Shown here piece by piece: positions 36,514 to 61,943 of a stretch of DNA of 64,000 nucleotides (position 1 is its first letter; every line of letters begins with the position of its first letter). This DNA comes from Prorocentrum cordatum (lineage: Eukaryota > Sar > Dinophyceae > Prorocentrales > Prorocentraceae), in the NCBI GenBank assembly GCA_963575745.1, contig CAUYUJ010018457.1, forward strand, positions 37,501-101,500, in the 5' to 3' direction. The translations under genes and the position numbers were made by a program. The notes below the pieces were generated by a model, which saw nothing but the letters and a program-made list of their open reading frames with translations, did no database searches and was not told where the DNA came from.

Positions 36514-36881
36514 CGGGAGGGGAGGAGACGGAGAGCATAGTCGCACGCAACGGTCGCGCGCACGACTGCTTGCAAAAAAGGAAAACAGTGCGTACAGTCT
36601 GGCCTAACACCAGACTGCAAGGCGAGTTTCCTCGCAAAGCATTTCACGCAAATACAAGACAGCCCCTTCAAACAATGAAGGGCTATCGGCTCAGTTAGAG
36701 GTAAGCCAAACAGGCCATACCTCACCAAGCAAATGTGTATTAAGGCAAAGAGCCTGAGTTGTACGAAGCCGGCTCGTTGCCAGGCGTGAAATATAAGGGG
36801 TTGTTTCCGAGCAACTAGAGGGGCGCCTTTATAGTAGGCGCCCGTGCTGGCAAATTGGACCGCGAGGGCAACAAGGACAGA
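36514..36881 (-). other. 3' untranslated region of the 16-kb element, with hairpins
   Basis: Noncoding interval between the pol stop and the 3' LTR. It holds one family-1 hairpin (36,622-36,635), a degenerate one near 36,772-36,785, and a perfect 7-bp stem with a 9-nt loop at 36,821-36,843 (GGGCGCC/GGCGCCC). Next to the LTR the plus strand is purine-rich (GGGAGGGGAGGAGACGGAGAG), so the sense RNA is pyrimidine-rich at the place where a polypurine tract would be expected. Confidence 0.6.
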
Positions 36882-39800
36882 CTAAAATTGATTAGACTTA
36901 GGTTTGTCTCTGTCCTCGGGACCCCGAAAGGGAACAAATTGCTTCACGTCATACTTAAATGACTGAGTGCCTGACATCACTTCCAGAAGCAGCTCCCGAT
37001 CGATGCTTCCCTTTGTATGCCCATCTGCGGTCATATCCCTAGTATCACACCATTGCACATTATGTACTATACCTATATCCATGAGCTCACGTATCCAGCT
37101 GATATGTCCAAGCAGAGTCCGTTCTGTAGGTATCTTGAGATCCCTGCTTGATAAAGATTTGTAGACGGACTCGGCGTCTATGGTAAGAGAGACTTTGATA
37201 GCCAGGCCTCCAACTTCACGCATGTCTCGTAGTTGTCGTGGAGTCAAAGCTCCAGCCTTAAGCTCGTGGAGAGTAATGAGCGTAGGGTAACACTCATCAA
37301 GGTTATGTGCAGCTGCAAGTGCCTCCGCAGCATAACTGGACCTCACCTGTAATCGGTGTGATTTGCATAGTCCGTCACAGAGGTGAACGACGGACTTGCC
37401 TTGAGGCGAGTTTCCTCGCCGTAGTACATTGGCCCCGCGTATGCCGTAGCCCTTGGTCTCGTCATCCTCCTCCCCGGTAAGCTTCCGATACCCCGAATCG
37501 CTATGGATGTCAACTTCATTCGTCGGCTTCATCCGAGGGAAGGTGATACGTTTCGGGCTGCTGATCAGCTTTCGCGTCACAGCATTCAGACGTCTGACTT
37601 GCAGACTGGTGGGCTCTTGAATTTTCTGAAGAGAGACCACGTATACCATGAGCCAGATTTGGGTAAGAAGGGCATAGGCGAGGGCTCCTCGCAGGCTGAC
37701 GAACATGTCGGTAATGAGTTTCGCGGCTTTGGCATCGGCCGCCGCTCCTGTAAGTTCTGGGTGTGTGATAGGACGTAGTTGTTTGATATACTCGTCCTGG
37801 TCCATGATCACATCTCCTTGATCATTCTTAGTGTAGCGAACGGCGCAGTTCGTATATGTGTGCTTGATGAGCTTGCATTTGCCAAACACCTTTTCGACGC
37901 GTTGTACATAGTCGTCTATGTTTTTCTCTAGACCTGTCATGTTAATATCATCGACATGTTTTGCCGTCAGAAAGTCTTGGCTGAATTCAAATTCAGGATC
38001 GTAGCTGGTCGGCGTAAGTCCTATAGCTCGTGTGGTCGTACGAAGTTTGAGAGAGAACGCTCTTGGAGCGTCCTTTGTACCCGTTCCTGGTTTGAGGCAT
38101 CTAAGACAGTGTCGACTTTCGTCGTAGGATGAGAAGCCGGGTAATGTACGAAGTACCTGAGCACTTCCTGGTGGAAGAGTAAAGCAAACCATGCGAGTTT
38201 CCTCGCCGGTGGCATGGGCAAGTTCCTCATAGGTCAAACCCTTGAGGAACGCCTTATCGATATCCATGGATGCTAAGATCCACTCTGGATGGCATGCCGC
38301 TTCACTTGCCAGGAGTCGTTGGGACTGCCTTCGGGCGGTTCCCGAGAATGTTTCCACATCAAAAGCCTCAGTGTCCATAAATCCACGAAGGACCAGTCTG
38401 AGACGAATGGTTTTAACGTTCTCGGTACCCATCTTTACAAACTTCCACTTATGTACATATCTGGATGTCATGATGTTGGAAGCTTTGGATAAATCATACA
38501 TCTCAAAGCATCGATTATCAATCCAGGTTTTGAGCTCAGTATACAAAGCTTCACTAACCTCCTTTGGATGCGCTGCTATGTCGGCTTTGGTCAGTAGATC
38601 ATCTTCTTTGACAACCACAGCACGTTTAGCAGCAGAGGATACATATACTCTCATCGTTGCGACCATATCAGTATCGAGCTGTGCAAGTTGAGTCTGATCC
38701 AACACTATTTTTGACATTTCCGATGTAAAACATAATTCAACGTAAGGACCATATTCATCACTGTCAAGAGAGTAGCTCTCGTCGGTTGTGGTTGAACAAA
38801 GAGAGACTAGACAGGGTTCACGTGATTTCGGCTCGTCTCCGAGCATATCTGATGATATAATATCATCTTCGTCCACAAATGCTGAAACCAAAACACATTG
38901 GTCGGGCAGCATAGTTGTTGGGACGCAATAAAGATAATCATCAGTAATCGTCGTAGGATGAAGGTCCATACGTAGCTCGTCGCACCACTCTTCCAGCATC
39001 ATAGCTTCGATATTGTGTTCCTCATTTTCCTCATAGATTGTCGCCAGACGGCCTTCACTCGGCGATGAAACATCTGGTGTGTCTGGAGAAGGCCTGTTTC
39101 CAGGCGACTCGTGTTCCCCAGACGTGTTGCTTGAATGCTGATATTTAACCAAATCGTCGTGAAATCCTGAGGAAGGGACACGTGAAGTCAAGCATTGAAT
39201 AAGTCTGGAGTGAGTGCTACCAGTGATCTGAAAAATGTTTAAGCCGGTGCCCACACATTCGTAGTAGTGGAACGCCGGGCTGATGTCGTTGTCATAGTGG
39301 ATCAGCGTAGACCCGGTGGCGTACTTTACTGCAGGTAAGCTTGACACACTCTTAGCCGGTCGAACTGCTACTACATGTTCTACTCGGAAGTAATTTCGTA
39401 CGAGATACTGTAGTGCTAAGTGTACGCGCGGGTGGAACTTGCTGTCGTCTGACAGATTAAGGTTTCCCTTGTAATCGGGGATATAACCGAAAACTTTGGC
39501 AGGTTTCCCTGCGCTGAGGTGTGCCACATAAGCAAGGACGGTTTGCATGGCCATATTATCCATGCCAAGTTCCCGTGTGAGGAGACATTCGATGTATAGT
39601 GTGTGACGAGCATCAGGATACATCACAATTACCTCACGAGATCCTGCCTTGACAACAATATGTCCTCTTTCAGGCACATTTCGGATTACCGGGAATGGGC
39701 CATTCCAGCCTCCATGGTCGTCCTTGGTGGCAGTAGGTCGGTGGTAATCGACCAAATCCCCTGATGAGTAGAGGCGAGCACCATCAGGAGTCGTCTTAGC

Positions 39801-41624
39801 CCTAAGAGCCCGATTTGTCTTGGCCACAGCAGTAGCCTGAGTTATAGCTTCTAGGCTGACTTCCCTTACACGACGTTCTCGTTCGTGTCCTGAAGTCTCG
39901 GGTCCCTTGGGAAAGTCAAGGGTATCGAGATCAGGGAGGAAAGAGGGCTGACGTCCTGTGTGTGCCTGATATGGCGATACTCCGTTATAAAACGTAGACG
40001 CATTAGTAACGAAGATGCCTTCCGCCAGTACTCTAGTGAATACAACAGGGATCTTGTGTCTACTCAATTCTTCCTCAATCATATGGAGGACGCCTCTGAG
40101 AATGCCGTTTCGTGACTCAATTGAAGTCGCGTGTTGGCCAGGTGCTCGGATGCGAAGTTCCGTGCCCTTATTGGCCATCATGGTTTTAGCGGCATCGTTA
40201 TTCAGGGCGCCTTCTCCGTCTGAGTATAAAACTTTGAAGGGTCCGTGATAGGCAATCCAGCAGTAGTGGTAGGCGTCGATGATAGTGTCACGTTCTCTGT
40301 CGGAAATGTCTAGGCCTGCTGCCAAGCGAATACAACGATCCATAATATGAAATATGGTCCGTTTCTTGTAAAACATGAGGTCCATTTCCCCTTCATCGAG
40401 CCAGTTACCAGGAAGGCTCACCGATGGTAGCGTTGAGTTTCCTGGACGTTCCCATGCTCTGCATTCCCGACAGGTATCGCAAACTTCCTTGATCATGTTC
40501 AGTCGAACGTTATCAAGCCCCACGTTTTCGAGGATTAGCCTCATCTTTGGCTCCTTCGCATGATACCATCGCAGATGCAGTTTTCGGAGTTCCTTTTTCA
40601 CGACATGAGGTTCGTGACGACGGAGACTCTGTAGACTGTGTTGGATGTCGAATCTCGTCCAGTCGGGTAGTCGTGGAGCCCCAGAGCCGGTGGAGGCAAG
40701 AGGGTTCCTTGTAGCTCTCCGTAGTTGGTCCCCTGTGTTAACTGCGTCTGGAGGTGGTGGTGCGCCTTGTAGACGGCCGCGGCGGGCCGCTACCTGTGGC
40801 ACTTCGCTAGAAGACGCAGAAGGCGTGTTTCCACGCTCGGGGGCGTCTCGTAGCATGTCGTAGCTGCTGGCACCAGATGTCGGATCGACGTTGCCGAAGG
40901 ATCGTGGTCGTGGTGGCCTGGCGCGTGCGCCTTGACGGCCACCTGAAGCTGAAGCTTGGCCCTCACCAGGTTTAGGTAAGGGTTTCCACCAAGCTGGCAC
41001 GGTTTTGCCTTCGGGGTCGTGGTCGTCTGGTAGTTTAAATGGTTCAGCAAAACGACATTTACCAGGTTCGGTATCGAGGTGGTTCTTAACACCCTTGCTT
41101 CTCGTAAGATCCCTCTGACATGCTGGACATGGCCAATATACAGAGATGGAATCATGATATTTACACTGCGTAGGGTCTCTGTTATGGCTAGGACTGTCCT
41201 TTCGGACGTTGTCGATGCATGCCGGGCAAGTAGCCACCTTTGGGATGATACGATCACCGATGCGTCTCATACCTTCGCCTGGTTCAGCTTGATCGGGAAG
41301 GTCTGTAGGATAAGCATGTGCGGTACTTATAGGCGCGTTTCCGCGCGTGGTGTCAATGGCTTTCGCCAGATATACAGCTTCCACGAAGGCAGACTGCAGT
41401 CGTCGGGTGTATTTTTGTGCCAGTGAAAGCTCGGTATTGCACGGTTGTGCGTGCACATGCTGACCGTTCCACTTGAGTCGCTCAAAAGGTTTAAGAATTG
41501 TCTCGTCGTTGCTGGTGATATTTGTCGGCTTCTTAATATAGTCACCAGTCGTGTCTTTAAGTCCCGTAGCGCATTGGTCAATGCGTACGGTTGTGATGTG
41601 GGTCGGTTGGCAAGCTTCTTCCAT
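36882..41624 (-). CDS. pol: Pol of the 16-kb element: integrase, reverse transcriptase, RNase H (1,580 codons)
   Basis: This frame encodes the replication enzymes. A Cys-rich segment CDTCRECRAW near residue 383 is the preintegrase zinc site. The integrase core shows MDLMFYKK (first Asp, about 412), YSDGEGALNN (second Asp, about 467) and SIESRNGILRG (Glu, about 503). Residues 840-1040 are an acidic, low-conservation spacer. RT motifs are IRLRLVLRGFMD (about 1,075), ASMDIDKAFLKG (about 1,120) and AKHVDDINMTG (about 1,226), where HVDD replaces YVDD. RNase H has EVDIHSDSGY (about 1,372), YAAEALAA (about 1,433), TIDAESVYKSL (about 1,482) and DMTADGHTKG. The first ATG is 41,624, but homology-like sequence begins only after the methyltransferase-like frame, 298 nt of which overlap, so expression probably uses a -1 shift near 41,590 rather than this ATG. 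Confidence 0.85.
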   Translation of the reverse strand: MEEACQPTHITTVRIDQCATGLKDTTGDYIKKPTNITSNDETILKPFERLKWNGQHVHAQPCNTELSLAQKYTRRLQSAFVEAVYLAKAIDTTRGNAPISTAHAYPTDLPDQAEPGEGMRRIGDRIIPKVATCPACIDNVRKDSPSHNRDPTQCKYHDSISVYWPCPACQRDLTRSKGVKNHLDTEPGKCRFAEPFKLPDDHDPEGKTVPAWWKPLPKPGEGQASASGGRQGARARPPRPRSFGNVDPTSGASSYDMLRDAPERGNTPSASSSEVPQVAARRGRLQGAPPPPDAVNTGDQLRRATRNPLASTGSGAPRLPDWTRFDIQHSLQSLRRHEPHVVKKELRKLHLRWYHAKEPKMRLILENVGLDNVRLNMIKEVCDTCRECRAWERPGNSTLPSVSLPGNWLDEGEMDLMFYKKRTIFHIMDRCIRLAAGLDISDRERDTIIDAYHYCWIAYHGPFKVLYSDGEGALNNDAAKTMMANKGTELRIRAPGQHATSIESRNGILRGVLHMIEEELSRHKIPVVFTRVLAEGIFVTNASTFYNGVSPYQAHTGRQPSFLPDLDTLDFPKGPETSGHERERRVREVSLEAITQATAVAKTNRALRAKTTPDGARLYSSGDLVDYHRPTATKDDHGGWNGPFPVIRNVPERGHIVVKAGSREVIVMYPDARHTLYIECLLTRELGMDNMAMQTVLAYVAHLSAGKPAKVFGYIPDYKGNLNLSDDSKFHPRVHLALQYLVRNYFRVEHVVAVRPAKSVSSLPAVKYATGSTLIHYDNDISPAFHYYECVGTGLNIFQITGSTHSRLIQCLTSRVPSSGFHDDLVKYQHSSNTSGEHESPGNRPSPDTPDVSSPSEGRLATIYEENEEHNIEAMMLEEWCDELRMDLHPTTITDDYLYCVPTTMLPDQCVLVSAFVDEDDIISSDMLGDEPKSREPCLVSLCSTTTDESYSLDSDEYGPYVELCFTSEMSKIVLDQTQLAQLDTDMVATMRVYVSSAAKRAVVVKEDDLLTKADIAAHPKEVSEALYTELKTWIDNRCFEMYDLSKASNIMTSRYVHKWKFVKMGTENVKTIRLRLVLRGFMDTEAFDVETFSGTARRQSQRLLASEAACHPEWILASMDIDKAFLKGLTYEELAHATGEETRMVCFTLPPGSAQVLRTLPGFSSYDESRHCLRCLKPGTGTKDAPRAFSLKLRTTTRAIGLTPTSYDPEFEFSQDFLTAKHVDDINMTGLEKNIDDYVQRVEKVFGKCKLIKHTYTNCAVRYTKNDQGDVIMDQDEYIKQLRPITHPELTGAAADAKAAKLITDMFVSLRGALAYALLTQIWLMVYVVSLQKIQEPTSLQVRRLNAVTRKLISSPKRITFPRMKPTNEVDIHSDSGYRKLTGEEDDETKGYGIRGANVLRRGNSPQGKSVVHLCDGLCKSHRLQVRSSYAAEALAAAHNLDECYPTLITLHELKAGALTPRQLRDMREVGGLAIKVSLTIDAESVYKSLSSRDLKIPTERTLLGHISWIRELMDIGIVHNVQWCDTRDMTADGHTKGSIDRELLLEVMSGTQSFKYDVKQFVPFRGPEDRDKPKSNQF

Positions 41625-43345
41625 GGAGAAATATCATCTACCCATGTTCCTGTAGGTTGTTCGCGTATAAACCACCTCCGAGAGTCATCTTGGGTTACAG
41701 CAATTTCACCACAATAAGTTATGTGTGGTAAGTCTTCTTTATGGTGCTGTTCCCAAGTGTTGTAGTTGACTTTGTAGTTGTAGTAGGATGGTGGTCCTGT
41801 GGTGCGGCAGCTGGGTTGCAGTATGGCAACTCGTACGTAGCATATAGCAAAGTAATGGTCTATAACCTGCTGCACCGAGGGGTCTCCCAGGTCGACATAT
41901 GTAGTCTTGTCCAAGTTGCCGCCTGAGGAAAGTCCCCTTGAGAAGGCAAGCTCTGAGATGCCACCCTCACCGCCACAAAGCTCCAACATATCCACGCAGT
42001 TGTTATGACCATAGCATAGTGTAGCAACTATGCTGTATATGTTAGCGTGTGTGTCGGGCATAGATGTGGGGAGGGTAAGGAACAGGTCATCGTCCTCGTC
42101 GGAGCTTATCAGCTCAACAGGGACGTCAGTACTCCAGGTTGCCATAAGATCCTGTCCGAGTCCTGACAAGTCGTCGCCGCAATCATCGTTTCCGTCTTCA
42201 ACGTGCTTTTTAATGCGGCGAGGCTTGATGCCTGCTTCCTTTTCGGCTTTGAGCCTCTCCTTCTGCTTTATGCGCGATTCAGTGGGTAAAACTTGCTCGT
42301 CTTGTTCGTCGGTCTGTGTACTCATTGTCGTGGTTGAATGGGTACATGCGTCAATCGCCAGAGTCGGGAGGGGGAGAGAACAGTCATCTCTGATGACGCG
42401 TCGATGTTTCTGTGGTGATTGAGTCGGCTCGTTTCCGAGCAAGACCGGTTCCTCGGGTTGCCGATATAACCGAGTACTGATGTTGGCAACCCCTGCAGGT
42501 AATGGTGCATGCCAATCATATCCTGTTGGTTGATCGGTAACTGAGATATCTTGAATAACCGCATTGGTATCCAGGTTAATTGTTACACGCCGGATGACTT
42601 CAGACCATTTTGGTCCTCCCTTATTAGTCGTCACGTAGTGACGGGTGTTGTGGTCTGTGCGTGTATACGTATTTAAGTATACAGGCACGTTTCCGTGCGT
42701 GGTGGTGCTCCCCAGGATGTTGTCACTCAAGTGACGGATGAGTGTAGTACGTGTCTGAGCTCGCCATTCAGCATGCCGTACTGTATGGCCGTACCAATCC
42801 AACACATGTTGTGGCATTGCCTGCTTACAGGTACATGCCCACAGCTTCGAGCTGATCGGTATTGATGATGCTACCTGCATATAGGTACCGCTTGGTGTAC
42901 TGTCTTGCATATTGAACCGAATACCGAAATGACACAAACGCATCCGTATTACTGACAACTTTAGATCTTCCAGGGTGTCACGTACTGGAGATAACTTCCA
43001 AACATATCCTGGGGGACCAAATATTATGATCTGCATGCGGAGTTTCTTGGCTTTTATCGACAGGTTCTGGATACGTGACCAATGTGGGGCCACTCTCTTT
43101 CCTGGAGTTCTTACGTACCCGTCACTCGGAGTACTGATCCATATGAGAGTGTAATCTCCACTGATCACCGCACCTAGGTAGTTTGTGCCCACGCTTGTCA
43201 TAAGTTCGTTGTGGGAAATACGATCACAAATATAACCTCGTGTGCGGAGGTCGGCACATGCCTCCCTCGTATCTTCAATGACAAAAGCCCTTTTACTAAG
43301 GCAGGTTACCCCGCTGTCCTTGTTACCCCCCGGCTTTTCAGCCAA
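41327..43345 (-). CDS. Methyltransferase-like region of the 16-kb polyprotein (672 codons)
   Basis: Two Rossmann-like parts are visible. The first (residues about 15-190) has TREACADLRTRGYICD, GDYTLIWISTPSDGYVRTP and KLRMQIIIFGPP, and resembles the pre-integrase domain of E2. The second (about 465-600) has MLELCGGEGGISELAFSRG (motif-I-like, Gly-rich), TTYVDLGDPS (acidic second strand) and VAILQPSCRTTGPP, a Pro-Ser-Cys loop comparable to the Pro-Cys motif of cytosine methyltransferases. Activity is not established. The nominal start at 43,345 is TTG. The frame is really an in-frame continuation of the upstream protease frame, separated only by the TGA at 43,385-43,387, so readthrough or a lost sense codon is likely. 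It ends inside the pol frame. Confidence 0.65.
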   Translation of the reverse strand: MAEKPGGNKDSGVTCLSKRAFVIEDTREACADLRTRGYICDRISHNELMTSVGTNYLGAVISGDYTLIWISTPSDGYVRTPGKRVAPHWSRIQNLSIKAKKLRMQIIIFGPPGYVWKLSPVRDTLEDLKLSVIRMRLCHFGIRFNMQDSTPSGTYMQVASSIPISSKLWACTCKQAMPQHVLDWYGHTVRHAEWRAQTRTTLIRHLSDNILGSTTTHGNVPVYLNTYTRTDHNTRHYVTTNKGGPKWSEVIRRVTINLDTNAVIQDISVTDQPTGYDWHAPLPAGVANISTRLYRQPEEPVLLGNEPTQSPQKHRRVIRDDCSLPLPTLAIDACTHSTTTMSTQTDEQDEQVLPTESRIKQKERLKAEKEAGIKPRRIKKHVEDGNDDCGDDLSGLGQDLMATWSTDVPVELISSDEDDDLFLTLPTSMPDTHANIYSIVATLCYGHNNCVDMLELCGGEGGISELAFSRGLSSGGNLDKTTYVDLGDPSVQQVIDHYFAICYVRVAILQPSCRTTGPPSYYNYKVNYNTWEQHHKEDLPHITYCGEIAVTQDDSRRWFIREQPTGTWVDDISPWKKLANRPTSQPYALTNALRDLKTRLVTILRSRQISPATTRQFLNLLSDSSGTVSMCTHNRAIPSFHWHKNTPDDCSLPSWKLYIWRKPLTPRAETRL

Positions 43346-43384
43346 CAGGCAAGACGACGAGGGGGCGACGTCGCCCTGCCATCT

Positions 43385-44704
43385 TCAAGATGAAGAAGAT
43401 GTGCCTACAATATCTGCCAGCATCTGGGCTTCCCTCAGATGCTGGAGCTCAGCACTGCAGCGCGCCGTGGCCTCAGAGGCGGATTGCTCCGCAAATGCTG
43501 TCAGCATCGATGGATTATCCATCAGCTGTTTCAGCACGCCTTTGGACCTAGCGTCGCTGACCGTATGCAATTCACGATTAGTGTATCCCATCACTATCTT
43601 ACGGCGGGACTGTACAGCGTCCATGGGTACACTACCACCATGCAGGGCCAGTGTCCTGGCAACAAAACAATCGAACGTCTCGAGATCGTCGATGTTGTCG
43701 CCTCGCATGGTGGCCTTGGCGAGCGTCTCCATCAACCCCTGGGGCAGGTTTCCCTGCAATTGCTTGCGCTCCTGCGCCGGGGTCGGCTCGCCTGTCAGCA
43801 CTGTCTGGAAGGACGTGCTGCTTGAGCTCGAGGCGGGTTGCCCCGCAGCTCCAAAACAATCACACCTGATCGACAGATGCCCTGACGGCAACTTTGTCGT
43901 CGGCATGATTTTGGAGCCTTCTGGGAGCTCCATTTTGACCTGCCCCTTACCAGGGAATATCAGCTTCTCCTGGCCTCGTTCAAGCACGATGATCGTGCGT
44001 TTGTCCTGCATACTGTCGAGGCCTAGGATGGCTGGCAGGTCCTTGCCACAGCCTGACACAATGTTCGTCTTGTATGAATCGAGTTGGGCCGACCCCTGGT
44101 ACTCGCAGGCAATACTGAATGTGCCTACGGTATCCGCTGGGGCCGACCCTTCTCCCACTCCGTTGATATTCAAACGAGAGCGGGGCTCGAACGTACAAGT
44201 ACGGCCATGTGCCTCGGCAGCCTGGACGAACTTACGGCTCGTGTTCTCGCCCATGATGTTGATCTTCGAACCGACGTCGATGAGTATGGAGTTTCCACCA
44301 TCATCCAAGAACGTCTTACTCGGCTGCTTGATGTGCACAATTTCTGAAGTGTCGGCTGTGTCGGTAGGCGGGTTTCCCCGCGGCACAGTCGTGCTCCCTG
44401 GCGGGTTACCCCGCATGACACTGGCATGCGACTCGCTCTCGGCCATGCGTGCCAGGTCGATGTACTGGAAGTACGACACGTGCTGGGCGTGATCGCCACG
44501 CTCCTCCCGCCAGTTGGCATACTCATCACGTATGCTCTTATACTGCTCGCGGGTCGTGCGCCTTATCAACGTCAGGTACGAGTGAAGGGCGATGTCTTGC
44601 AGCCCCTCGTTCGTGATGTGATCCCGGTACTTCAGCCACTCCTCGAACTCCTCGTTCGTCGCTGTGATGTTGACGGCCCTGGCTGCTGTTGCTGCTGACG
44701 CCAC
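43385..44704 (-). CDS. Protease region of the 16-kb polyprotein (retropepsin, 439 codons)
   Basis: Residues about 1-110 form a helical region (NEEFEEWLKYRDHITNEGLQ, IRRTTREQYKSIRDEYANWR). A retropepsin-like domain follows: SILIDVGSKINIMGE with catalytic Asp near residue 143 (DVGS in place of DTGA/DSGS), a flap-like region, and DLPAILGLDSMQDKRTIIV near 225-245 as the carboxy-terminal motif. The rest is a Gln/Glu-rich helix. The nominal start (44,704) is GTG. The coding signal actually continues from the upstream frame with a +1 shift in the sequence around CTCAGTGGCGTC, so a separate start is doubtful. It ends at a TGA, after which the same frame stays open for 672 more codons. Confidence 0.7.
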   Translation of the reverse strand: MASAATAARAVNITATNEEFEEWLKYRDHITNEGLQDIALHSYLTLIRRTTREQYKSIRDEYANWREERGDHAQHVSYFQYIDLARMAESESHASVMRGNPPGSTTVPRGNPPTDTADTSEIVHIKQPSKTFLDDGGNSILIDVGSKINIMGENTSRKFVQAAEAHGRTCTFEPRSRLNINGVGEGSAPADTVGTFSIACEYQGSAQLDSYKTNIVSGCGKDLPAILGLDSMQDKRTIIVLERGQEKLIFPGKGQVKMELPEGSKIMPTTKLPSGHLSIRCDCFGAAGQPASSSSSTSFQTVLTGEPTPAQERKQLQGNLPQGLMETLAKATMRGDNIDDLETFDCFVARTLALHGGSVPMDAVQSRRKIVMGYTNRELHTVSDARSKGVLKQLMDNPSMLTAFAEQSASEATARCSAELQHLREAQMLADIVGTSSSS

Positions 44705-47700
44705 TGAGGATTCTGATAAGGTCTAGCGACGGACTATCAGTTTCAGGATTGTTGGCATCCAGCATAAATGTTGTGTGCGTATTATCCATCTGATTCTGGA
44801 AATGTCGTACACGCAATTCACGCAGCTGATCAGGGTCCAGTGACATCTCAGCCTCGCCTCCACTCTGGGGAGACATCTGAGGAATATCATGCAGGTTTCC
44901 CTGCTGAGGCGCCGTAATCGGGATAAACTGATCAGAATATCCCGTTTCCATAGGCGGCCTTACCTCTTCAGGCAGGTATCCCTGCTGTTGTGACTGGGCT
45001 GTCTGCATAGCTAGCATCCTAGACGTCATCTCCTCCACCATGCTCCTCAGCTCCCGCAGCTCTCTCGCTGATTGCTCAGGAGTCTGACTAAAGGAGCCGG
45101 TCCATGGGAAGGATGATGCTACAATGCCAGGTGCTCGACAGATAGCACATGGTGGCTGCTGGGGATCTCCTTCACGCTGGTTTGTAACGTGGCCCACCGC
45201 ATTAGAATTCCAGCATCCCTCGTGGAACAAGTGGTTGCACCTCAGGCGGTAAACACTGTCCCTGGGCTGATATTCTTCGAGGCATACTGCACAGGTATCT
45301 TCCATCCCAGTAAGGACCTCTACGTCTGCTGCCCTGGGATATACCCGCCGCTGCCTCTCCAGCACCGTCTCGGAGGGCATGAAGGCTGATGGGGGAGTCC
45401 CCGTTGGATTCAGCACCTCCTGCACTTCAACATTTCGCATGGAAGTGGTAGGAGTCACGGCGGGCGAGTTTCCTCGCAAAGGTGAGCCCCTGTTCCTCAC
45501 CACATCAAGTGCAGCTGCACGTGACTGACCCCGTACACTTTGCACCGCCTGCCTTCTCCTGAAGCATGCCTGTTGAGTGTGGTGCGTCTGCCTGATGTAG
45601 TCAGGCACGCCCCTACTGCCAGACGATATTGAATGGGCAGTGGGCTGGACAACCACCTCTGGTGGGGTCGGTGAAGGCATGAAGGCCATGTGCGGGCACA
45701 TGGAATGGTCACTGCAGCGCACATTAGTGAGGTTATGCATCTGATCCGCCAATTCACGAACATATTTGTTCGGAACCCTTGACCCATCAGGGTATAATGG
45801 CGGGTTCATCTGCGCTGGTGGTGGCCTCTGGCCCTGAGACATGCTCGGATGGGCATTGAACGCCGGGATAAAGGCTCGTTGCCGAGCAGGATCCCGTGGG
45901 TTGGGACCCTCAGGCTCCCAGGACCAGGCTGGCCTCCACCTCTGCCCACTTGGGTGAGGCAGATTATGGCTCTGCACCTGCTGCACCGCGGCCGCCACTC
46001 TTGAGCGATAGTCGTCAGGTACACCCGCCCTGTGGTGGCTTGGTGTGCCAGGCAGGTTTCCCTGCTGACTCGTTGGCGTGCCGGGCGGCATCATGTTGAG
46101 GAGGGCTGTGCTGTGTTCAGCCCTAGCCGCAGCTATCCTCTCCATGAGAGTGCCGTTTGTGGCAGGGCGGACAGGTGTCCCGAATGGGGATTGTGCCGGT
46201 GGTGTGCCCAATGGAGTCATGCCCCTTGGAGTGTGCATGCTCTGAGTAGGGCTTCCATGCATTGGCTCAAACCGAGCAGGTCCGCTTGTAGGCAGGTTTC
46301 CCTGCATGGCCTGACGATTTCTCGTAGCCATAGCGGACATTGCTCCCTGGCCTGCGGCCCAGGGGTCCTGCTGGTATAGCCTGTCCGCCAGCTGTTCTAC
46401 CTGGTCAGGGTTCAGCGCGGCTGCGATCTGATCCAGGTCCGAGGTATTGATGGCCTGCCAAGACACGGCACTAGGCCCTTGGCTTGGGGCACGGCTTGGA
46501 GCCGCGCTCCCGGCCTCACTCTCGGTAATCATGAAGATCCGATAGATCTCAGGCTGGTTTCCCAGCTTGGTAGGGCTGTAGTGGTCCCCAACTTCCCTGT
46601 GGAAGTAACCCATAGGGGGGTCAACGCCCCCTTGGTCTCGGGACCACTGGTACTTAACGCTAGCAGTGCCAACGTCAGCCCACCTGTCAGGAGCAGACAT
46701 CGTTGCGACAGAGACTCGCGCATGGCGGCTCCCCAGATACTCTGGATTACGCCAGTGCCTTCCTGTGGACAGGTCCTCTACATGGGAGATATAATACGGT
46801 TCAATGATGCCGTTATCTCCCTCGGACAAGAGGACTCCGTTATCGGACCAACAGAACTTCATACCATCTTGTATGGCCTTACGCCAATCTACGAAGATGA
46901 TGATGTCTGAGTCTGGGTCCCACCCACTGTTCACGGCACGGCGGCGAACTGTCGGCACGAAATGAATGTGCGACCGGCCTGTCCCCTTTTTCTTCGTGTT
47001 ATGCTCAGGTCTACAGGACAGGCCGTGCCACATAATCCCTTCGAAGGCGTGCCATCGAGTGCCATGCATAGCAACATCGGGGTATGGGGCCGGTCTCCCG
47101 GCAGGTTGGTCGCACAGCACAATGTAGCTGTACAGCGACCATGGAGCTTTCAATTCCCATGAATGCCCCTGAGAGGCGCGGACGAAGATAGCGGGCTCTC
47201 CGGAGTCCCGCATCAACACCTTGAACTGTAGGCGCTGTTTTTCTTCTCCGTCTGGTTCACGAACATGAACAACTTCCATCATGATGGCTGCTAGTTGGTC
47301 AACCGAGCGCCTACATAGATGCTCGTTGATGACCTTGGCCTCGTCATATCTTGGATTATACCCAGCGTGTCTTGATTGACCTGTGTTCCACGGGTAAGGG
47401 TCCACGAGTTCCACTAGGTTAACCCAACCATCATGATCATCGAAAGATTCCAGGCTCCACACAGGATTGTGTTGCCTGTCTGGCGCATGTCTGCATATCC
47501 TGCTGAGAGCTTTGCTCAGATGTTTGAGAATATCATTGGATGTGGGAAGGATTCCAGCTTTCCTGCATTCCTTCATGAATGTCTCATCCACCGAGCGTAT
47601 CGGTGGGAGCTTCCGAAGCGCAAGTCTATCCCTGATCACATTCGGAGTCCCACTAGTGAAGGACGTGTCGCCTGGGCGGTGCAGCTGAACCACTGGCGGG

Positions 47701-48689
47701 TTTCCCCGCATCGGAACCTCTGTTGCTGAAGAGGCTGCGGCTCCTGAAGAGGAGGAAGCTGCGGCGGCAGCGCCTGGCGGGTTTCCCCGCAGAGATGCGC
47801 GACTGGCGCTGCCCCTGATCTTCGGCACCCAGGTACCCCTCGACATAGCACCTTCATCGGACCTCCTGGAACGGGCCGCCACAGGCGAAGCTGGCGCAGG
47901 TGCATACCCACTGCGCTCGAAAGCTGCCGCCTTTTTCGCAATGGAGCTGCTGCGACTAGGCGGGCGTCTTCGTTCCTCCATAGGGTCCTGAGGTTGCTGC
48001 TTGGGCTCAGGCGCTTGTGTAGGAGTTGCGCCAATCGGCGGCCTCGGGGTTTCAGTTCGAGGCACCTCCATCTGCACGTCTGGCCCAGGGTCATGAGGGC
48101 TCGTCTTCGGTTTCGGCACCGAGGACGGCTTAGGTGTCGGGGGTTCACTCTTGGCCTTCGAAGTTAGTGGGAGTGGGGGCTTCGGAGCCCTCTTCATGTA
48201 GATCTTACTAGAATCCTCCAACATCTTGCGAGTTGCCTCGCGAGTGCGTTCTTCTGCTGTCCGCATGCGCTCCTCGTCCTCCGCCACACGTTGAGCCTTT
48301 TTCTCATCCTTGATTGTCGGTTCTGGTTGCTGGGACTGGCTAGAGACGCCAGGCGAATTTCCTCGCATACTAGGAAGACTAAAGAGCGCGTCTTTCTCTT
48401 CCTGGGTCATGGCTACCAGTCCCCTTGGAACCGGAGAAGGCTTCTCTTCTTCTTTCGGATCCAAGTGGCTCAAGATCCCGAGACGACGATTCACTTCTGC
48501 GATCTCTTCCTGTGTCATCGGGATAAGTTGCGGATGGCCCTCTTTATGAAGGGTTTTGCCCCTGTTCGGGCTCAGGCCATCGTTGTTGCCAACGGGGCAT
48601 CCTGGCCTGTGGTTCTGGAACGGCTGGGAACAAGGTCCGCATGCTGCGTGAGGCCTATACTGCTTGCGCGCCGCGATAATGTCTCGCAA
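44538..48689 (-). CDS. Tpt1/KptA RNA 2'-phosphotransferase plus RING-H2 finger (1,383 codons)
   Basis: Residues about 385-640 match the Tpt1/KptA family, which removes the 2'-phosphate left at RNA ligation junctions, using NAD+. Visible signature residues are LSKALSRICRH (Arg400-His401), VRASQGHS (Arg504 to Ser510), MHGT (His542-Thr544), and GRSHIHF (Arg572 to Phe577), followed by SGWDPDSDIIIFVDWRKAI. All hallmark residues I know are present. Residues 1,133-1,184 form a RING-H2 finger: C-x2-C-x14-C-x-H-x2-H-x2-C-x21-C-x2-C. The remainder is Pro/Gln/Ser-rich linker with many xGNxP peptides. An upstream stretch in the same frame (from about 49,120) is coding-like and is cut only by a TAG near 48,793, so the true amino terminus probably lies in the preceding region. 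This combination inside a retrotransposon is unusual. Confidence 0.85.
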   Translation of the reverse strand: MRDIIAARKQYRPHAACGPCSQPFQNHRPGCPVGNNDGLSPNRGKTLHKEGHPQLIPMTQEEIAEVNRRLGILSHLDPKEEEKPSPVPRGLVAMTQEEKDALFSLPSMRGNSPGVSSQSQQPEPTIKDEKKAQRVAEDEERMRTAEERTREATRKMLEDSSKIYMKRAPKPPLPLTSKAKSEPPTPKPSSVPKPKTSPHDPGPDVQMEVPRTETPRPPIGATPTQAPEPKQQPQDPMEERRRPPSRSSSIAKKAAAFERSGYAPAPASPVAARSRRSDEGAMSRGTWVPKIRGSASRASLRGNPPGAAAAASSSSGAAASSATEVPMRGNPPVVQLHRPGDTSFTSGTPNVIRDRLALRKLPPIRSVDETFMKECRKAGILPTSNDILKHLSKALSRICRHAPDRQHNPVWSLESFDDHDGWVNLVELVDPYPWNTGQSRHAGYNPRYDEAKVINEHLCRRSVDQLAAIMMEVVHVREPDGEEKQRLQFKVLMRDSGEPAIFVRASQGHSWELKAPWSLYSYIVLCDQPAGRPAPYPDVAMHGTRWHAFEGIMWHGLSCRPEHNTKKKGTGRSHIHFVPTVRRRAVNSGWDPDSDIIIFVDWRKAIQDGMKFCWSDNGVLLSEGDNGIIEPYYISHVEDLSTGRHWRNPEYLGSRHARVSVATMSAPDRWADVGTASVKYQWSRDQGGVDPPMGYFHREVGDHYSPTKLGNQPEIYRIFMITESEAGSAAPSRAPSQGPSAVSWQAINTSDLDQIAAALNPDQVEQLADRLYQQDPWAAGQGAMSAMATRNRQAMQGNLPTSGPARFEPMHGSPTQSMHTPRGMTPLGTPPAQSPFGTPVRPATNGTLMERIAAARAEHSTALLNMMPPGTPTSQQGNLPGTPSHHRAGVPDDYRSRVAAAVQQVQSHNLPHPSGQRWRPAWSWEPEGPNPRDPARQRAFIPAFNAHPSMSQGQRPPPAQMNPPLYPDGSRVPNKYVRELADQMHNLTNVRCSDHSMCPHMAFMPSPTPPEVVVQPTAHSISSGSRGVPDYIRQTHHTQQACFRRRQAVQSVRGQSRAAALDVVRNRGSPLRGNSPAVTPTTSMRNVEVQEVLNPTGTPPSAFMPSETVLERQRRVYPRAADVEVLTGMEDTCAVCLEEYQPRDSVYRLRCNHLFHEGCWNSNAVGHVTNQREGDPQQPPCAICRAPGIVASSFPWTGSFSQTPEQSARELRELRSMVEEMTSRMLAMQTAQSQQQGYLPEEVRPPMETGYSDQFIPITAPQQGNLHDIPQMSPQSGGEAEMSLDPDQLRELRVRHFQNQMDNTHTTFMLDANNPETDSPSLDLIRILSGVSSNSSQGRQHHSDERGVRGVAEVPGSHHERGAARHRPSLVPDVDKAHDPRAV

Positions 48690-50947
48690 CTGAGTCCGCG
48701 CTTCTTGAATTTCAGGGCGGCGGATATTTGTTGCAAGCTGATAGCCTCCGCGGATGGCTTTGCCATCACTGACCCTATAGGCAGGGTTGCCCTAGCCGAA
48801 GGCCGAGTGTTCCCCTTTTCGGCGTCTTGGGTCGTTGTACGGAAGTAGCTGGCCACCTCTCCTGAGAGCGTGTTCTTTTGGGCCAGCCTGCCTCCACTCA
48901 CGAGGAAGTCGAGCCTGTGGATGTGGCTCTTCTCTGACGCGCGTATGGGAACGAGACCTTCTGGTGTTCTCATCAGAAGAGGCTGCCGAAGCAGCAGGAG
49001 CGGTACCCGGTGGAGGTGCCTGAGGAGGCTCCTGTGCGATCCTAGATGGATCGTCCGATGGAGGCAGGTCTCCCTGCTGGGTGGAGCTCGGCGCAAATGG
49101 TTCTTGTGCCGATGGTGATGAGATGATTCAGACTCGTCAGGATCGAAGTCAACCTCTTCCTCACAATTCACGTCCATCATGAGGATGGTGACGTCATCCT
49201 CATCTAACCCGCAACCATCGCCTTCTACTTCTTCTGATGTCGAACTACCGATGATGATGGCCATTGGCGTATCTGGTACAGGCAGGTTTCCCTGCATAGC
49301 CGGCGTCTGTGCGTCGCTCGGCTGTCCCGGGGTAGGAGGCACTGTTGTCGGCTCAGGCTCGTTGCCGAGCACAGGCTGCCCAGCAATGTTGCGCATGGCC
49401 GTATGGTTTGGCCTCATTCCCACCGCCTGGAGACCCCATCCTGGCGGAGGAAGATCATGACCGCGCATAGCAATAGCCATTTCTAGAGCATTACGCCATC
49501 TACCACGGGAGTATATCAAGTGACTCTGCACGTCCTGAGGATGCACGCTGTCAATGAGAGTCAGAGCTGCCAATAACAGCTCTGAGCTACCACAAGCATC
49601 AGTATCCTGTTCTATCATAATGTCAGCTTCGATATGTTCTTGACTCTCAGGATAACCAGTAATAAGTATCTCATGCATCCTCATGAGGGTCTGCAAAAGG
49701 GTGCGTGGTCCATATTCGCCTGGAGCAAGCGAACCAGGAGGTATGAACGGAGTATCTGGTTCGCCTGCAATGAAGGCCTGAACAAATGCCTGAGACTCCA
49801 TTTCAATTAAGTCTTCAGTGGTCTGGGGATATTCTCCCATCAAAGACGGCCTGTTTCCAGGCGGGATTTCGGGCGGAGGTTCGAGGTTTCGTTGAACCTC
49901 GGAAGGCGAAGCCTCTATAGTGGTGTCCTCGTCGTCGCTCTCGTAGGCCATGATGTTGCCTGGGTTCCCGAACATCCAGTCGAAGAAAGAAAGAGGCTGG
50001 TTTCCCAGCGTACCGTGGTCCACGGGAGTGAGCTCGTTATTGCCCATAACGAACCGGCGGACGTACTCGAGGTAGTACGCGTACAATCCATGACCATACG
50101 CCTCGAGCTCGTCGACGTTGTCCATGCCAACAACCCAAGTGAAAAATATCTGCTCCATAGCCTCAAAGTCCTGGAGGCTCAGATACTCAATGGATGGTTC
50201 ACTTGAGCCAAAATGGACTTCGGTCGACCTGCCCTTTCCATTTCCCTTCACTGGACAATCTCGCACAAGATGATCGGAACTACCACATTCATGGCATTTA
50301 AGAACCTGGCCGTCTCTACCTCGCGGGTTTCCCCGCCTACCTTTGCCTTTTCCTGAGGTCTCTCTACGGCCTTTACCACGGCCTTTTCCCCCAAAGAATA
50401 TCTCATCATGTTGTTCATCTGAGAGCCTCTGGAGAAATGCCGCGATGCCTCGTCCGTTCAACCTCCGACGACCTCGCTTGCCTTTACCCTTTCCTTTAAA
50501 ACTTCTACGTATCCTCCTTCTAACACGACGCACTGGTTTTCGTGTGAACCTCCTCCACCTTCGTTTAGCCTGTTGTAATAACCAGAACAAATGTTCAGCA
50601 CGCTGATTGTCGTTATCCATATTCATAATATCTGACCAATCTAAAGCTTCAACACCATCTGATGATATAGTGTCTGTATCGGTGCCGGAGTCGAAATCCT
50701 CGTCTCCCAAGTAGGTGGATACACCGTCGGTTAGGGGGTTTGATTCCCCCCATAAAGAACGGTGTGGTTGTGGTTCTCTAGAAGGAGGGCTGGTTGCCCA
50801 GCTTGGTTGTGATCGATCCCCTGCTAATAACGCAGTGGATTCACCTGGGTCATCGGCCCATATGCTTGAGGGCCCGTTTCCAGGCTGGGCTTCAGTAGTC
50901 AAGGTAGTGTAGAATTTTCCACTACCAGATCCCCTTCCCCTTTCCAA
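48572..50947 (-). CDS. Nucleocapsid-like CCHC protein of the 16-kb element (791 codons)
   Basis: Residues 130-215 are strongly basic (KRRWRRFTRKPVRRVRRRIR and GKGKGKRGRRR). They are followed by one zinc knuckle, C218-x2-C221-x4-H226-x4-C231, typical of retroelement nucleocapsid. The following 380 residues are acidic (SDDEDTTIEAS, DEDDVTILMMD). The nominal start is TTG at 50,947. The coding signal continues from the membrane-Gag frame by a +1 shift in an A/G-rich sequence (GGAAAGGGGAAGGGG), overlap 26 nt. From about 49,120 onward the frame reads as nonsense-like (HHHRHKNHLRR), while the other frame carries a natural Gln/Pro/Ala-rich sequence, so a -1 change occurs there and the last 180 codons are probably not translated as listed. 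Confidence 0.75.
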   Translation of the reverse strand: MERGRGSGSGKFYTTLTTEAQPGNGPSSIWADDPGESTALLAGDRSQPSWATSPPSREPQPHRSLWGESNPLTDGVSTYLGDEDFDSGTDTDTISSDGVEALDWSDIMNMDNDNQRAEHLFWLLQQAKRRWRRFTRKPVRRVRRRIRRSFKGKGKGKRGRRRLNGRGIAAFLQRLSDEQHDEIFFGGKGRGKGRRETSGKGKGRRGNPRGRDGQVLKCHECGSSDHLVRDCPVKGNGKGRSTEVHFGSSEPSIEYLSLQDFEAMEQIFFTWVVGMDNVDELEAYGHGLYAYYLEYVRRFVMGNNELTPVDHGTLGNQPLSFFDWMFGNPGNIMAYESDDEDTTIEASPSEVQRNLEPPPEIPPGNRPSLMGEYPQTTEDLIEMESQAFVQAFIAGEPDTPFIPPGSLAPGEYGPRTLLQTLMRMHEILITGYPESQEHIEADIMIEQDTDACGSSELLLAALTLIDSVHPQDVQSHLIYSRGRWRNALEMAIAMRGHDLPPPGWGLQAVGMRPNHTAMRNIAGQPVLGNEPEPTTVPPTPGQPSDAQTPAMQGNLPVPDTPMAIIIGSSTSEEVEGDGCGLDEDDVTILMMDVNCEEEVDFDPDESESSHHHRHKNHLRRAPPSRETCLHRTIHLGSHRSLLRHLHRVPLLLLRQPLLMRTPEGLVPIRASEKSHIHRLDFLVSGGRLAQKNTLSGEVASYFRTTTQDAEKGNTRPSARATLPIGSVMAKPSAEAISLQQISAALKFKKRGLSCETLSRRASSIGLTQHADLVPSRSRTTGQDAPLATTMA

Positions 50948-52169
50948 ACACAGATCCTATGTTACCAGGAGACCGTTCGGATAGGTGGCCTATCGAACGC
51001 ATCCTCTCCAGCAACTCATCATGCTGTTGTTGTGTTCGGGGCATTTGGTGATTGAGTGGCTGTAAGAGTTGCATGGCTCGCTGGTTGCCGACGCCTAAGG
51101 CGCGGAATAGGATAGTGGTTAGCAGTTGGAAGTTGGGAAGGTCGAATCCCACCGACTGTGCCTCAAGTCGGGCCATTTCGAATCGGGTAAGGGTGACATC
51201 GATTCGTTCCCCGTGAGGCACGTGGAAGTCGATGAGTTGTGTGCCGGAAGTGAGCTGTCGCTCATCTTCCAGGCGTTCGAACTTCATGCTTAGGAGGAAC
51301 ATGATGTAGGTCACTGGGTCTGTGTGGACCCCATCGATGTCAGCACCATAGTTTATAATGTCAGGCGGTACCCTCATGGCGAGTGTCCTCGCTAGGCCAC
51401 CTAGGCCGCGTTGTATTGCGGCCGCTTGGGCCTGTGGCGTCATACGTCCGCTTGTAACGTTGAGCCATGCGTTGACCTCGTAGATGTACTCACGAAAAGG
51501 TACATTACCTTGAGGGTCCCAATATGGGCCATGTGTTTGCCCATCGGTGCTGTTTTCTCCACGACGCATGTGTCCGATTGCTGCCCCCAGCGCGAACCAT
51601 ATAATAGCGAAAACGACTAGCCCGAGAATGTGTAAAGAAGGACGGTTATGATGCGCGTTGTCGCGCTGGGGTAGCGCCTTGTCGAGTCTTCGAGGCGCTC
51701 TGTCTGGCGGGTCTCCCCGCCCCTGCTTCAAGCATTGCGCTGTTAGCTCGTTGCCGAGCGGTTGGTGGTAACGCAATGATGAAGCGTATATGGTACCAGT
51801 CTGGTCGTCTAGACGTCGTACCTCTCGTGTTGCTTCTTGCTCTTGGATAGATCCTCGTAAACGTACTGGGAGTGGCGGCGCAGGGTGGTAGGTGGTCACG
51901 AAGATCGTGCCGAAGAATATGAGGCTAAGAAGACCAAGAGCTGACCACACGAGAGTGCGGCCAGCTCCGTTACGAAGTCGAAAGTGAGCCTGGTAGCTCA
52001 AATATGGCATATAGCCTGGCAAATTGCGTCCATCGCTCTGCTGTGAAGGTACAGTATGAGGGGCGGACGGATAAGATAGGATAAGATCGATGTAATGATC
52101 TTTCCAGCACATAGCGAACACTCGCGGTGTCCGGGCAAATAGGGCGCGCGTGCCTTGGGCCAAAGGCAA
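50922..52169 (-). CDS. gag: Gag-like protein with two transmembrane segments, starting in the 5' LTR (415 codons)
   Basis: The frame opens inside the LTR. The nominal first codon is TTG at 52,169; the first ATG is codon 20 (about 52,112), still in the LTR. Residues about 72-94 (TLVWSALGLLSLIFFGTIFV) and 178-199 (LHILGLVVFAIIWFALGAAI) are hydrophobic and probably span a membrane, unusual for Gag. Residues 225-395 resemble copia Gag: QAAAIQRGLGGLARTLAMRVP, DPVTYIMFLLSMKFERLEDE and TLTRFEMARLEAQSVGFDLP. The frame reads straight through the primer-binding site. Ty1 also begins its Gag within the LTR. It ends GKGKGIW, 26 nt inside the next frame. Confidence 0.75.
   Translation of the reverse strand: MPLAQGTRALFARTPRVFAMCWKDHYIDLILSYPSAPHTVPSQQSDGRNLPGYMPYLSYQAHFRLRNGAGRTLVWSALGLLSLIFFGTIFVTTYHPAPPLPVRLRGSIQEQEATREVRRLDDQTGTIYASSLRYHQPLGNELTAQCLKQGRGDPPDRAPRRLDKALPQRDNAHHNRPSLHILGLVVFAIIWFALGAAIGHMRRGENSTDGQTHGPYWDPQGNVPFREYIYEVNAWLNVTSGRMTPQAQAAAIQRGLGGLARTLAMRVPPDIINYGADIDGVHTDPVTYIMFLLSMKFERLEDERQLTSGTQLIDFHVPHGERIDVTLTRFEMARLEAQSVGFDLPNFQLLTTILFRALGVGNQRAMQLLQPLNHQMPRTQQQHDELLERMRSIGHLSERSPGNIGSVFGKGKGIW
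51964..51975 (-). other. Primer-binding site of the 16-kb element
   Basis: Directly downstream of the 5' LTR the minus strand reads TCGTAACGGAGC, matching 10 of 12 bases of the TGGTAGCGGAGC sites of C1 and E2. There is no gap to the LTR. It is also coding (Arg-Asn-Gly-Ala within Gag). Confidence 0.6.
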
Positions 52170-53759: not shown

Positions 53760-53823
53760 CCGGTCCAAAAACATGTTCGCTCAAGTCCATGATGGAAACC
53801 AACGGGCCTGAAACGTGCGCGGG

Positions 53824-61394: not shown

Positions 61395-61415
61395 GTCTCC
61401 GTGGAGCAGAAACCT

Positions 61416-61911: not shown

Positions 61912-61943
<32 letters not shown>

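Follow-up and report, generated by a model that had tools for sequence, protein, structure and literature searches.

Dispersed packaging signals are debated, being degenerate in most viruses, and to our knowledge the way in which long terminal repeat (LTR) retrotransposons select and pack their RNA is poorly known outside yeast Ty1/Ty3 and the retroviruses. Palindromes or hairpins inserted within genes are familiar from the Rickettsia palindromic elements and the byps of Magnusiomyces, which are much larger or are skipped by the ribosome. Here, we examine a stretch of 64,000 nucleotides from the dinoflagellate Prorocentrum cordatum (contig CAUYUJ010018457.1, positions 37,501 to 101,500; hereafter the window), in which a Copia-type LTR retrotransposon carries many copies of one short hairpin capped by a GNRA tetraloop.

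Several described systems resemble this arrangement in part. In the excerpted account, the dispersed packaging signals of single-stranded RNA viruses consist of many stem-loops with a shared recognition motif (PMC6281560). The repetitive hairpin elements of sponge mitochondria, as excerpts of their description have it, are intergenic and combine conserved stems with varying loops, and their authors infer no loop function from the free loops (PMC2800124). For Ty1, a member of the Copia superfamily, the excerpts describe a 5' pseudoknot region that serves packaging and a Gag protein that prefers its own RNA, aided by structure (PMC4974528, PMC8396678). Among the open-licence literature matches listed, taken as titles and the starts of abstracts, no counterpart of the pattern reported below is described.

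The retrotransposon occupies 36260-52229 on the minus strand (15,970 bp) and contains 36 hairpins of the form GC-NN-G/GNRA/C-NN-GC, all on the sense (minus) strand. Thirty-five of these have the fixed columns GC..G/C..GC together with standard pairs, and the remaining one, at 48353, has a closing G-U pair. Three further hairpins carry G..A loops that are not GNRA (GATA, GACA and GACA), which brings the total to 39. No GNRA hairpin is present on the antisense strand of the element, or on either strand of the other 48 kb of the window. An earlier note, made from the letters of the window, had described 33 such hairpins confined to one retrotransposon. The dispersed sense-strand GNRA hairpins are real (36 sense versus 0 antisense) and the first and last positions that it gave, 36622 and 51746-51759, are correct; the count was too low, and confinement to one element is true of the window and not beyond it, as the proteins of related elements show the pattern too. 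Two features escaped that note, namely a bias in codon phase and a conserved C as the base after the stem (34 of 39 hairpins). The spacing of the hairpins along the element is compatible with a uniform distribution (Kolmogorov-Smirnov p = 0.34), and one of them (36622) lies downstream of the Pol stop and before the 3' LTR. RNA folding of five single hairpins gave -7.1 to -9.3 kcal/mol. The window holds no known RNA family at gathering thresholds and no tRNA genes.

The 39 hairpins are listed below, 5' to 3' along the sense RNA, with the peptide encoded by those in the prevailing codon phase and, where it exists, the counterpart in P0001, a protein homologous to the Pol frame of the element.

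51746..51759, minus: GCTCG-GCAA-CGAGC, LGNE
51707..51720, minus: GCGGG-GAGA-CCCGC, RGDP
50872..50885, minus: GCCTG-GAAA-CGGGC, U-G pair, PGNG
50789..50802, minus: GCTGG-GCAA-CCAGC, out of phase
50323..50336, minus: GCGGG-GAAA-CCCGC, RGNP
49996..50009, minus: GCTGG-GAAA-CCAGC, LGNQ
49849..49862, minus: GCCTG-GAAA-CAGGC, PGNR
49357..49370, minus: GCTCG-GCAA-CGAGC, LGNE
49282..49295, minus: GCAGG-GAAA-CCTGC, QGNL
49064..49077, minus: GCAGG-GAGA-CCTGC, QGDL; two overlapping frames
48353..48366, minus: GCGAG-GAAA-TTCGC, closing G-U, RGNS
48228..48241, minus: GCGAG-GCAA-CTCGC, out of phase
47777..47790, minus: GCGGG-GAAA-CCCGC, RGNP
47696..47709, minus: GCGGG-GAAA-CCCGC, RGNP
47089..47102, minus: GCCGG-GAGA-CCGGC, out of phase; Tpt1 region
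46553..46566, minus: GCTGG-GAAA-CCAGC, LGNQ
46292..46305, minus: GCAGG-GAAA-CCTGC, QGNL
46052..46065, minus: GCAGG-GAAA-CCTGC, QGNL
45874..45887, minus: GCTCG-GCAA-CGAGC, out of phase
45464..45477, minus: GCGAG-GAAA-CTCGC, RGNS
44891..44904, minus: GCAGG-GAAA-CCTGC, QGNL
44401..44414, minus: GCGGG-GTAA-CCCGC, RGNP
44368..44381, minus: GCGGG-GAAA-CCCGC, RGNP
43833..43846, minus: GCGGG-GCAA-CCCGC, out of phase
43744..43757, minus: GCAGG-GAAA-CCTGC, QGNL
43301..43314, minus: GCGGG-GTAA-CCTGC, G-U pair, out of phase, SGVTC; P0001 RGATR (by eye)
42685..42698, minus: GCACG-GAAA-CGTGC, HGNV; P0001 HGSV
42427..42440, minus: GCTCG-GAAA-CGAGC, LGNE; P0001 LGDE
41333..41346, minus: GCGCG-GAAA-CGCGC, RGNA; P0001 RGDT; two overlapping frames
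40823..40836, minus: GCGTG-GAAA-CACGC, RGNT; P0001 HGDV
39499..39512, minus: GCAGG-GAAA-CCTGC, out of phase, AGKPA; P0001 AGKPA (by eye)
39092..39105, minus: GCCTG-GAAA-CAGGC, PGNR; P0001 PGDR
38831..38844, minus: GCTCG-GAGA-CGAGC, LGDE; P0001 LGDE; codon-compatible pair variation over relatives
38193..38206, minus: GCGAG-GAAA-CTCGC, conserved reverse transcriptase (RT) motif, TGEETR; P0001 TGEATR (by eye)
37406..37419, minus: GCGAG-GAAA-CTCGC, RGNS; P0001 RGSS
36622..36635, minus: GCGAG-GAAA-CTCGC, between the Pol stop and the 3' LTR
44972..44985, minus: variant with GATA loop, in phase
51379..51392, minus: GACA-loop variant, out of phase, possibly a chance occurrence
43647..43660, minus: GACA-loop variant, out of phase, possibly a chance occurrence

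Two other structures on the minus strand stand outside this list. A five-pair palindrome at 51653-51666, GCGCG-ACAA-CGCGC, whose loop is not GNRA, adjoins two true hairpins, and a five-pair GNRA hairpin of a different stem type, CGTTG-GCAA-CAACG at 48581-48594, codes VGNN.

In 200 dinucleotide shuffles of the element the mean was 0.025 hairpins and the maximum 1, far below the number observed, and a synonymous-codon shuffle that keeps the protein and the codon usage (500 runs) left a mean of 1.6 and a maximum of 6, versus 34 in the coding pieces. For the pairing test, 36 sites were matched on the fixed columns and the GNRA loop only, blind to the two free pairs. Both free pairs are Watson-Crick in 33 of these sites and include G-U in 2 more, such that 35/36 are paired; the only unpaired site, 36772, has a C-A mismatch, and it is here that the former statement that stem changes are "always compensated" fails. 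When the 21 distinct rows are taken, pairing holds in 99% of cells, 22 double changes are seen versus 6.9 after shuffling, and the covariation score is 0.544 versus 0.094, a value reached in 0/500 shuffles. The free stem pairs take 13 combinations among the 39 hairpins, which bears out the diversity reported before and raises its figure of at least nine. Wobble G-U pairs occur in the copies at 43301, 48353 and 50872, the first of which had been overlooked. Counted by departure from the ideal form, 35 copies are perfect, 3 (including 48353) are one step away and 6 are two steps away; block shuffles gave 0.02, 0.46 and 4.5, respectively. The one- and two-step copies are few beside the 35 perfect ones, and half-decayed copies are therefore nearly absent. 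A strand-indifferent DNA palindrome was rejected, there being 35 GNRA hairpins on one strand and 0 on the other. Structure, strand and covariation are established for the window.

Most of the hairpins also bear a fixed relation to the reading frame. Twenty-eight of 38 coding hairpins lie in one codon phase, with the centre of the loop on a codon boundary (p = 4e-7 versus one third). The 38 are the 39 hairpins with G..A loops minus the one after the Pol stop; those at 49064 and 41333, where frames overlap, were scored in phase, and the 28 were tallied by hand. The peptide encoded in phase is X-G-N/D-X' (Y once in third place), in which codon X pairs with codon X' and Pro usually comes next. The Gly codon is GGA in 25/28 in-phase hairpins versus 90/339 elsewhere, all third bases being synonymous. 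The other phases hold eight GNRA hairpins and two GACA variants. The second loop base is A in 25/28 hairpins in phase versus 3/8 of the out-of-phase GNRA hairpins (p = 0.006). Because the loop base is uniform in phase and mixed out of phase, we read the hairpins as having two origins, GAAA units that were copied in frame and assembly in place with any GNRA loop. Packaging by itself does not explain the phase bias, which may come from tolerance of G-N/D-x-P in linkers, or from parent copies that were themselves in phase.

Three protein searches scored 7990, 7979 and 7990 candidates, and further relatives may exist. Among the scored candidates there are 72 homologues, of which 3 come from EukProt, and two of these three carry the label 'Skav', presumably Fugacium/Symbiodinium kawagutii; the Gag-like frame has one homologue, P0073, covering 25% of the query. 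Relatives were compared as protein sequences only, and no DNA of relatives was found in scans of viral contigs and genome contigs. Hairpin-pattern scans of the viral contigs gave 38 + 61 = 99 stretches, and the densest 12 of the 99 have at most two C..G-GNRA-C..G core hairpins per strand, which we take as chance.

P0001 is about 75% identical to the Pol frame of the window (74-75%), and it has stem-compatible counterparts for 10/10 window hairpins in the stretch that it covers. Seven of these are in phase and were scored, among nine motifs, and three are out of phase and were judged by eye. The paired residues differ at some positions (RGNA/RGDT and RGNT/HGDV) and loops differ within the GNRA rule (N to D), with GNRA-compatible loops in 8/10 counterparts. 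P0001 has two extra motifs beyond the window counterparts. The conserved RT motif reads TGE-x-ER in 24/24 other relatives and TGE-x-TR in the window element and in P0001. As TGE-x-TR is seen only in these two hairpin-rich elements, the hairpin at this site would have been made at the expense of a conserved residue. The earlier note had left open selection on an RNA structure or its spread, and both seem to have left traces: spread in the uniform loop base of the in-phase copies and in the gappy alignment columns described below, and creation in place in the change from TGE-x-ER to TGE-x-TR.

Site 38831 was followed across 26 aligned rows, of which 23 bear a motif. In 14 of the 23 the motif is codon-compatible, versus 4.5 by permutation, a number reached in 0/10000 permutations; N, D, S or C was allowed as the third residue, and the last motif was taken in rows with several. 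The compatible pair types are L-E, R-S, R-T, H-V, P-R and R-A, the last with Cys and no GNRA. A tree of this site, with states given for 18/26 rows including the 14 compatible ones, has at least six changes among those 14, with modest support (4/23 branches starred).

Across the 24 relatives P0002-P0025, 52/99 sites are codon-compatible versus 23.9 permuted (maximum 38) once conserved motifs are removed, and 53/141 versus 31.0 before their removal; the conserved motifs were excluded by a hand-made list, in answer to excesses in the controls. The more distant groups show no excess for G[ND] after H/Q/L/P/R (P0026-47, 6/51 versus 8.0; P0048-72, 1/57 versus 7.1). Under a wider codon rule, GD in P0026-47 reaches 22/97 versus 14.6 and DN in P0002-25 reaches 17/75 versus 10.2. 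Particular lineages favour particular stems, such as D-PGNR-I in P0010 and P0018, HGNV in P0021 and P0024, and RGNA in P0005 and P0025. The Pol protein P0010 carries eight PGNR/PGDR units, five of which read D-P-G-N-R-I, for which an 18-nucleotide palindrome is predicted. Flanking codons are full-codon compatible in 21/60 cases versus 9.0, so some stems in relatives may be seven pairs long. The motifs are enriched in gappy alignment columns (26/66 versus 4.3% of residues); linkers align badly too, and 2 of the 26 belong to the N-terminal part of P0001, which is poorly aligned to the Pol frame. Taken together, the hairpin trait looks family-wide, with lineage-specific stems. Such stems, matched but different between lineages, are in keeping with co-evolution inside each element or with founder copies that selection has retained. 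Both the survival of the hairpins in a diverged relative and the family-wide pattern are seen only through proteins, and compensatory changes seem readable even from protein alignments.

The 16-kb element looks like a young insertion, because the two LTR cores, a 254-nucleotide direct repeat pair, have 2 mismatches and identical CTCTC, read by eye as a short target duplication, stands at both outer flanks. An RVT_2 match in the Pol frame (PF07727, E 4.8e-8, 33.3 bits versus a cut-off of 31.6) assigns it to the Copia superfamily. In 5' to 3' order the element contains two overlapping Gag-like frames, an accessory frame, a stop-ended frame and Pol; the RNase H, protease and integrase parts, like the limits of the frames, were assigned by eye.

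51976..52229, minus: 5' LTR (repeat core), 254-nucleotide direct repeat pair
50925..52196, minus: first frame, capsid-like Gag part by frame position only
48575..50956, minus: Gag-like frame; basic GKGKGK tract, CCHC zinc knuckle (PF00098, sub-cut-off)
44541..48791, minus: accessory frame, Tpt1/KptA RNA 2'-phosphotransferase and RING (PF01885, PF17123, PDB 7yw3)
43388..44722, minus: frame preceding Pol, protease-like to the eye and set off from the next frame by one in-frame stop
41330..43384, minus: upstream stretch of the Pol frame, sharing 68% identity with the P0001 N-terminal part
36885..41633, minus: Pol frame with RVT_2 (PF07727; P0001 similarity), integrase-like and RNase H parts by eye
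36260..36513, minus: 3' LTR (repeat core), 254-nucleotide direct repeat pair

The zinc knuckle (PF00098, E 8.3e-4, 19.8 bits) falls just below its cut-off of 20.8. Frame 50925..52196 has no Pfam match, and frame 43388..44722 has none above cut-off. A conserved block upstream of RT, a candidate integrase, was seen by eye; the Pol frame of the window has no Pfam integrase match, and PF00665 is found in 5/72 homologues, one of which also has RVT_2. In the accessory frame, PF01885 (Tpt1/KptA) matches with E 6.6e-23 across positions 5-177 of a 177-position profile and PF17123 (RING) with E 7.2e-8; PDB relatives of the Tpt1/KptA domain are 7yw3 (E 1.2e-11) and 7yw2, and the frame has no homologue among 7979 scored candidates. 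An LTR element would here have captured a predicted Tpt1/KptA-like enzyme of RNA repair or ADP-ribosyl transfer (44541-48791, minus strand). A single stop codon at 43385-43387 (minus) splits two long frames of the same phase near the start of P0001 and is a possible readthrough or re-initiation site. Neighbouring frames overlap out of phase at 50925-50956 and 41330-41633 (minus); P0001 is uninterrupted where the window splits at 41330-41633, so a frameshift or a sequence error is likely at that point.

We consider it very probable that the hairpins are a selected structure of the sense RNA. As the earlier note had proposed, a strand-specific nucleic-acid structure under selection, most simply RNA, is indicated by the sense-only loops, the covariation, the few decayed copies, the positions shared with P0001 and the pair changes at 38831. 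The hairpins would then act in cis at many points of the sense RNA of the element itself and be maintained by selection. The loop and the closing pair are fixed, the inner pairs are free and matched, and the C after the stem is conserved and unpaired, as would be expected of recognition by a protein for which the loop matters and the stem sequence does not. Such a protein may read the loop and its frame (outer C-G, closing G-C, GNRA), with the two free pairs needing only to match. The zinc-knuckle Gag is a natural candidate for the reader, and packing 16 kb of RNA is a considerable task. Many weak sites along this RNA could let the element's Gag/zinc-knuckle protein select the RNA of the element and condense it when particles assemble, a role like that proposed for dispersed packaging signals in small RNA viruses. 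Of the functions considered, packaging or condensation by Gag is the likeliest, a working proposal to which we give slightly less than an even chance. New sites could arise by copying of a frame-preserving unit into linkers, 15 nucleotides here including the conserved C and perhaps 18 in relatives, and also by point changes in place. More tentatively, a whole clade of Copia elements, probably of dinoflagellates, may carry along its genes an RNA hairpin code particular to each lineage, in which the GNRA loop and closing pair are a shared word and the stem, in some lineages a codon-for-codon palindrome of seven pairs, is each lineage's own; the words would be copied in frame and kept by selection, so that proteins recognize their own RNA among competing relatives. 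If a packaging or condensation code is present, its rigid, abundant and strand-specific signal makes the hypothesis of dispersed signals directly testable.

Several observations weigh against selection on a sense-RNA structure that Gag reads. Native context does not help the hairpins to fold: 25/35 exceed 0.5 in their own context versus 90/105 when transplanted within the element, and this difference (Mann-Whitney p = 0.002) is in the wrong direction, native sites being slightly worse. A function of the RNA alone would not lead one to expect the phase bias (28/38). The G-U asymmetry once offered as evidence for RNA does not hold up, as near-misses in relatives comprise 11 of G-U type versus 10 of A-C type, with no preference for G-U, and the window itself has 3 G-U copies versus one with C-A plus wobble. 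The codons behind the motifs of relatives are inferred. A GNRA loop calls for Asn or Asp as the third residue; two of the 10 P0001 counterparts (HGSV and RGSS) have Ser instead, and P0011 has Cys at 38831. At 38831, moreover, 9/23 motif rows are not compatible and 3/26 rows are without the motif; the site was picked by eye, having the motif in nearly all rows, and is the sole one tested of five listed. The permutations ignore shared ancestry, which can inflate such tests, and some control motifs also exceed their permuted values, namely GT in each of the three groups of relatives, which we take as conserved protein sites, GV in P0002-25 (10 versus 4.2) and S[ND] in P0026-47 (15 versus 8.3). 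Finally, according to the excerpted account, Ty1 withstands internal deletions of up to 5 kb (PMC4974528).

The main rival is a selfish micro-element, a frame-preserving unit of 15 or 18 nucleotides that copies itself within a lineage, for example by template switching in reverse transcription, and is tolerated in linkers. Motif enrichment in gappy columns would fit such a unit, though linkers also misalign, and so would the two extra motifs of P0001, the uniform loop of the in-phase copies, as from one parent, the eight similar units of P0010 and the conserved C after the stem. Decay would be expected of it, yet few copies are half-decayed while their positions are common to P0001 at 75% identity; the pairs at the fixed position 38831 change together, the RT-motif hairpin arose by a fixed-length substitution, and neither flanking similarity nor target duplication is seen by eye. 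We regard selfish copying as an unlikely account of the whole, and it may explain the origin of copies even if selection keeps them. Were it correct, a self-copying unit of 15 nucleotides would be among the smallest mobile units known to us.

A role in translation, such as pacing ribosomes or maintaining frame at the linkers of a very long polyprotein, is in keeping with the 28/38 coding hairpins in one phase and with the many hairpins in variable linkers. Eight GNRA hairpins lie in other phases and one follows the Pol stop, hairpins of five pairs at -7 to -9 kcal/mol (five tested) seem weak road-blocks, and a ribosome should be indifferent to GNRA identity, all of which makes this role improbable. 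Somewhat less probable again is a host-facing function, in which the hairpins serve to recruit, or to block, an RNA-binding protein or nuclease of the host, with consequences for stability, localization or escape from silencing, and possibly act with the Tpt1-like enzyme. The hairpins are spread over the whole RNA, and the same element encodes a predicted Tpt1/KptA domain that spans nearly the whole Pfam profile. Against this, any tie between enzyme and hairpins would be conjecture, and the accessory frame is without a homologue among the 7979 candidates scored for it. We hold a plus-strand DNA structure acting in reverse transcription or integration to be very improbable: the DNA version does fold, at -4.4 and -4.6 kcal/mol (two tested), and the strand polarity suits plus-strand cDNA equally, the G-U argument being weak, but the reverse complement is nearly as stable (-4.0 and -4.2), which gives little reason for a strict GNRA rule, and three copies have wobble pairs. 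Chance or a repeated protein motif has next to no probability and is rejected for the window by the shuffles and the blind pairing counts; X-G-N-X'-P resembles a peptide repeat, yet X and X' vary over many residues with codon complementarity kept, the synonymous shuffle leaves 1.6 of 34, and hairpins also occur in other phases and past the Pol stop.

Elsewhere in the window, a second Copia-type element (~53453-61671, minus strand) has its own terminal repeats (177- and 62-nucleotide matched blocks). It contains none of the GNRA hairpins, and 1/5 of its [HQLPR]G[ND] sites is codon-compatible. Beside it, at 61814-62728, are inverted repeats in the form of a 60-nucleotide pair, 82% complementary, with long C/G runs. 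A long tandem array of ~90-bp repeats lies at 8669-10765.

Returning to the described systems, translational bypass elements (byps) were rejected as an identity for the hairpins, since the frames are open through them and homologous peptides align, whereas byps are skipped by the ribosome. Compared with byps and the Rickettsia palindromic elements, the hairpins here are tiny and sit in open frames. PARCELs, the palindromic repeat coding elements, are in the excerpts of their description likewise coding repeats with dyad symmetry that are tied to mobile elements, but they are tandem protein domains of 25 residues, whereas those reported here are dispersed hairpins of five residues (PMC2996958). 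Sponge mitochondrial elements and the G-C clusters of yeast mitochondria are, as far as the excerpted account goes, likewise short hairpins at scattered sites; they spread as whole units, and do so separately in different lineages (PMC2800124), as the present hairpins may also do. The near-identical stems and free loops of such mobile hairpins are not what we see, as the GNRA loop is fixed and the free pairs take 13 combinations; here loops are conserved, stems covary, and most copies lie in coding frames. Ty1 is of the same superfamily, and the excerpted Ty1 accounts mention no dispersed hairpins (PMC4974528, PMC8396678); since Ty1, by those excerpts, does not need most of its internal region, dispersed hairpins would be a different solution. 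The packaging signals of single-stranded RNA viruses, as excerpted, are many stem-loops along the genome that keep a common motif and otherwise vary in sequence (PMC6281560), and many stem-loops with a common loop are likewise present here as the 36 GNRA hairpins. The present case differs from those signals in being an LTR retrotransposon, in which one rigid 14-nucleotide GNRA form is repeated as 36 putative sites.

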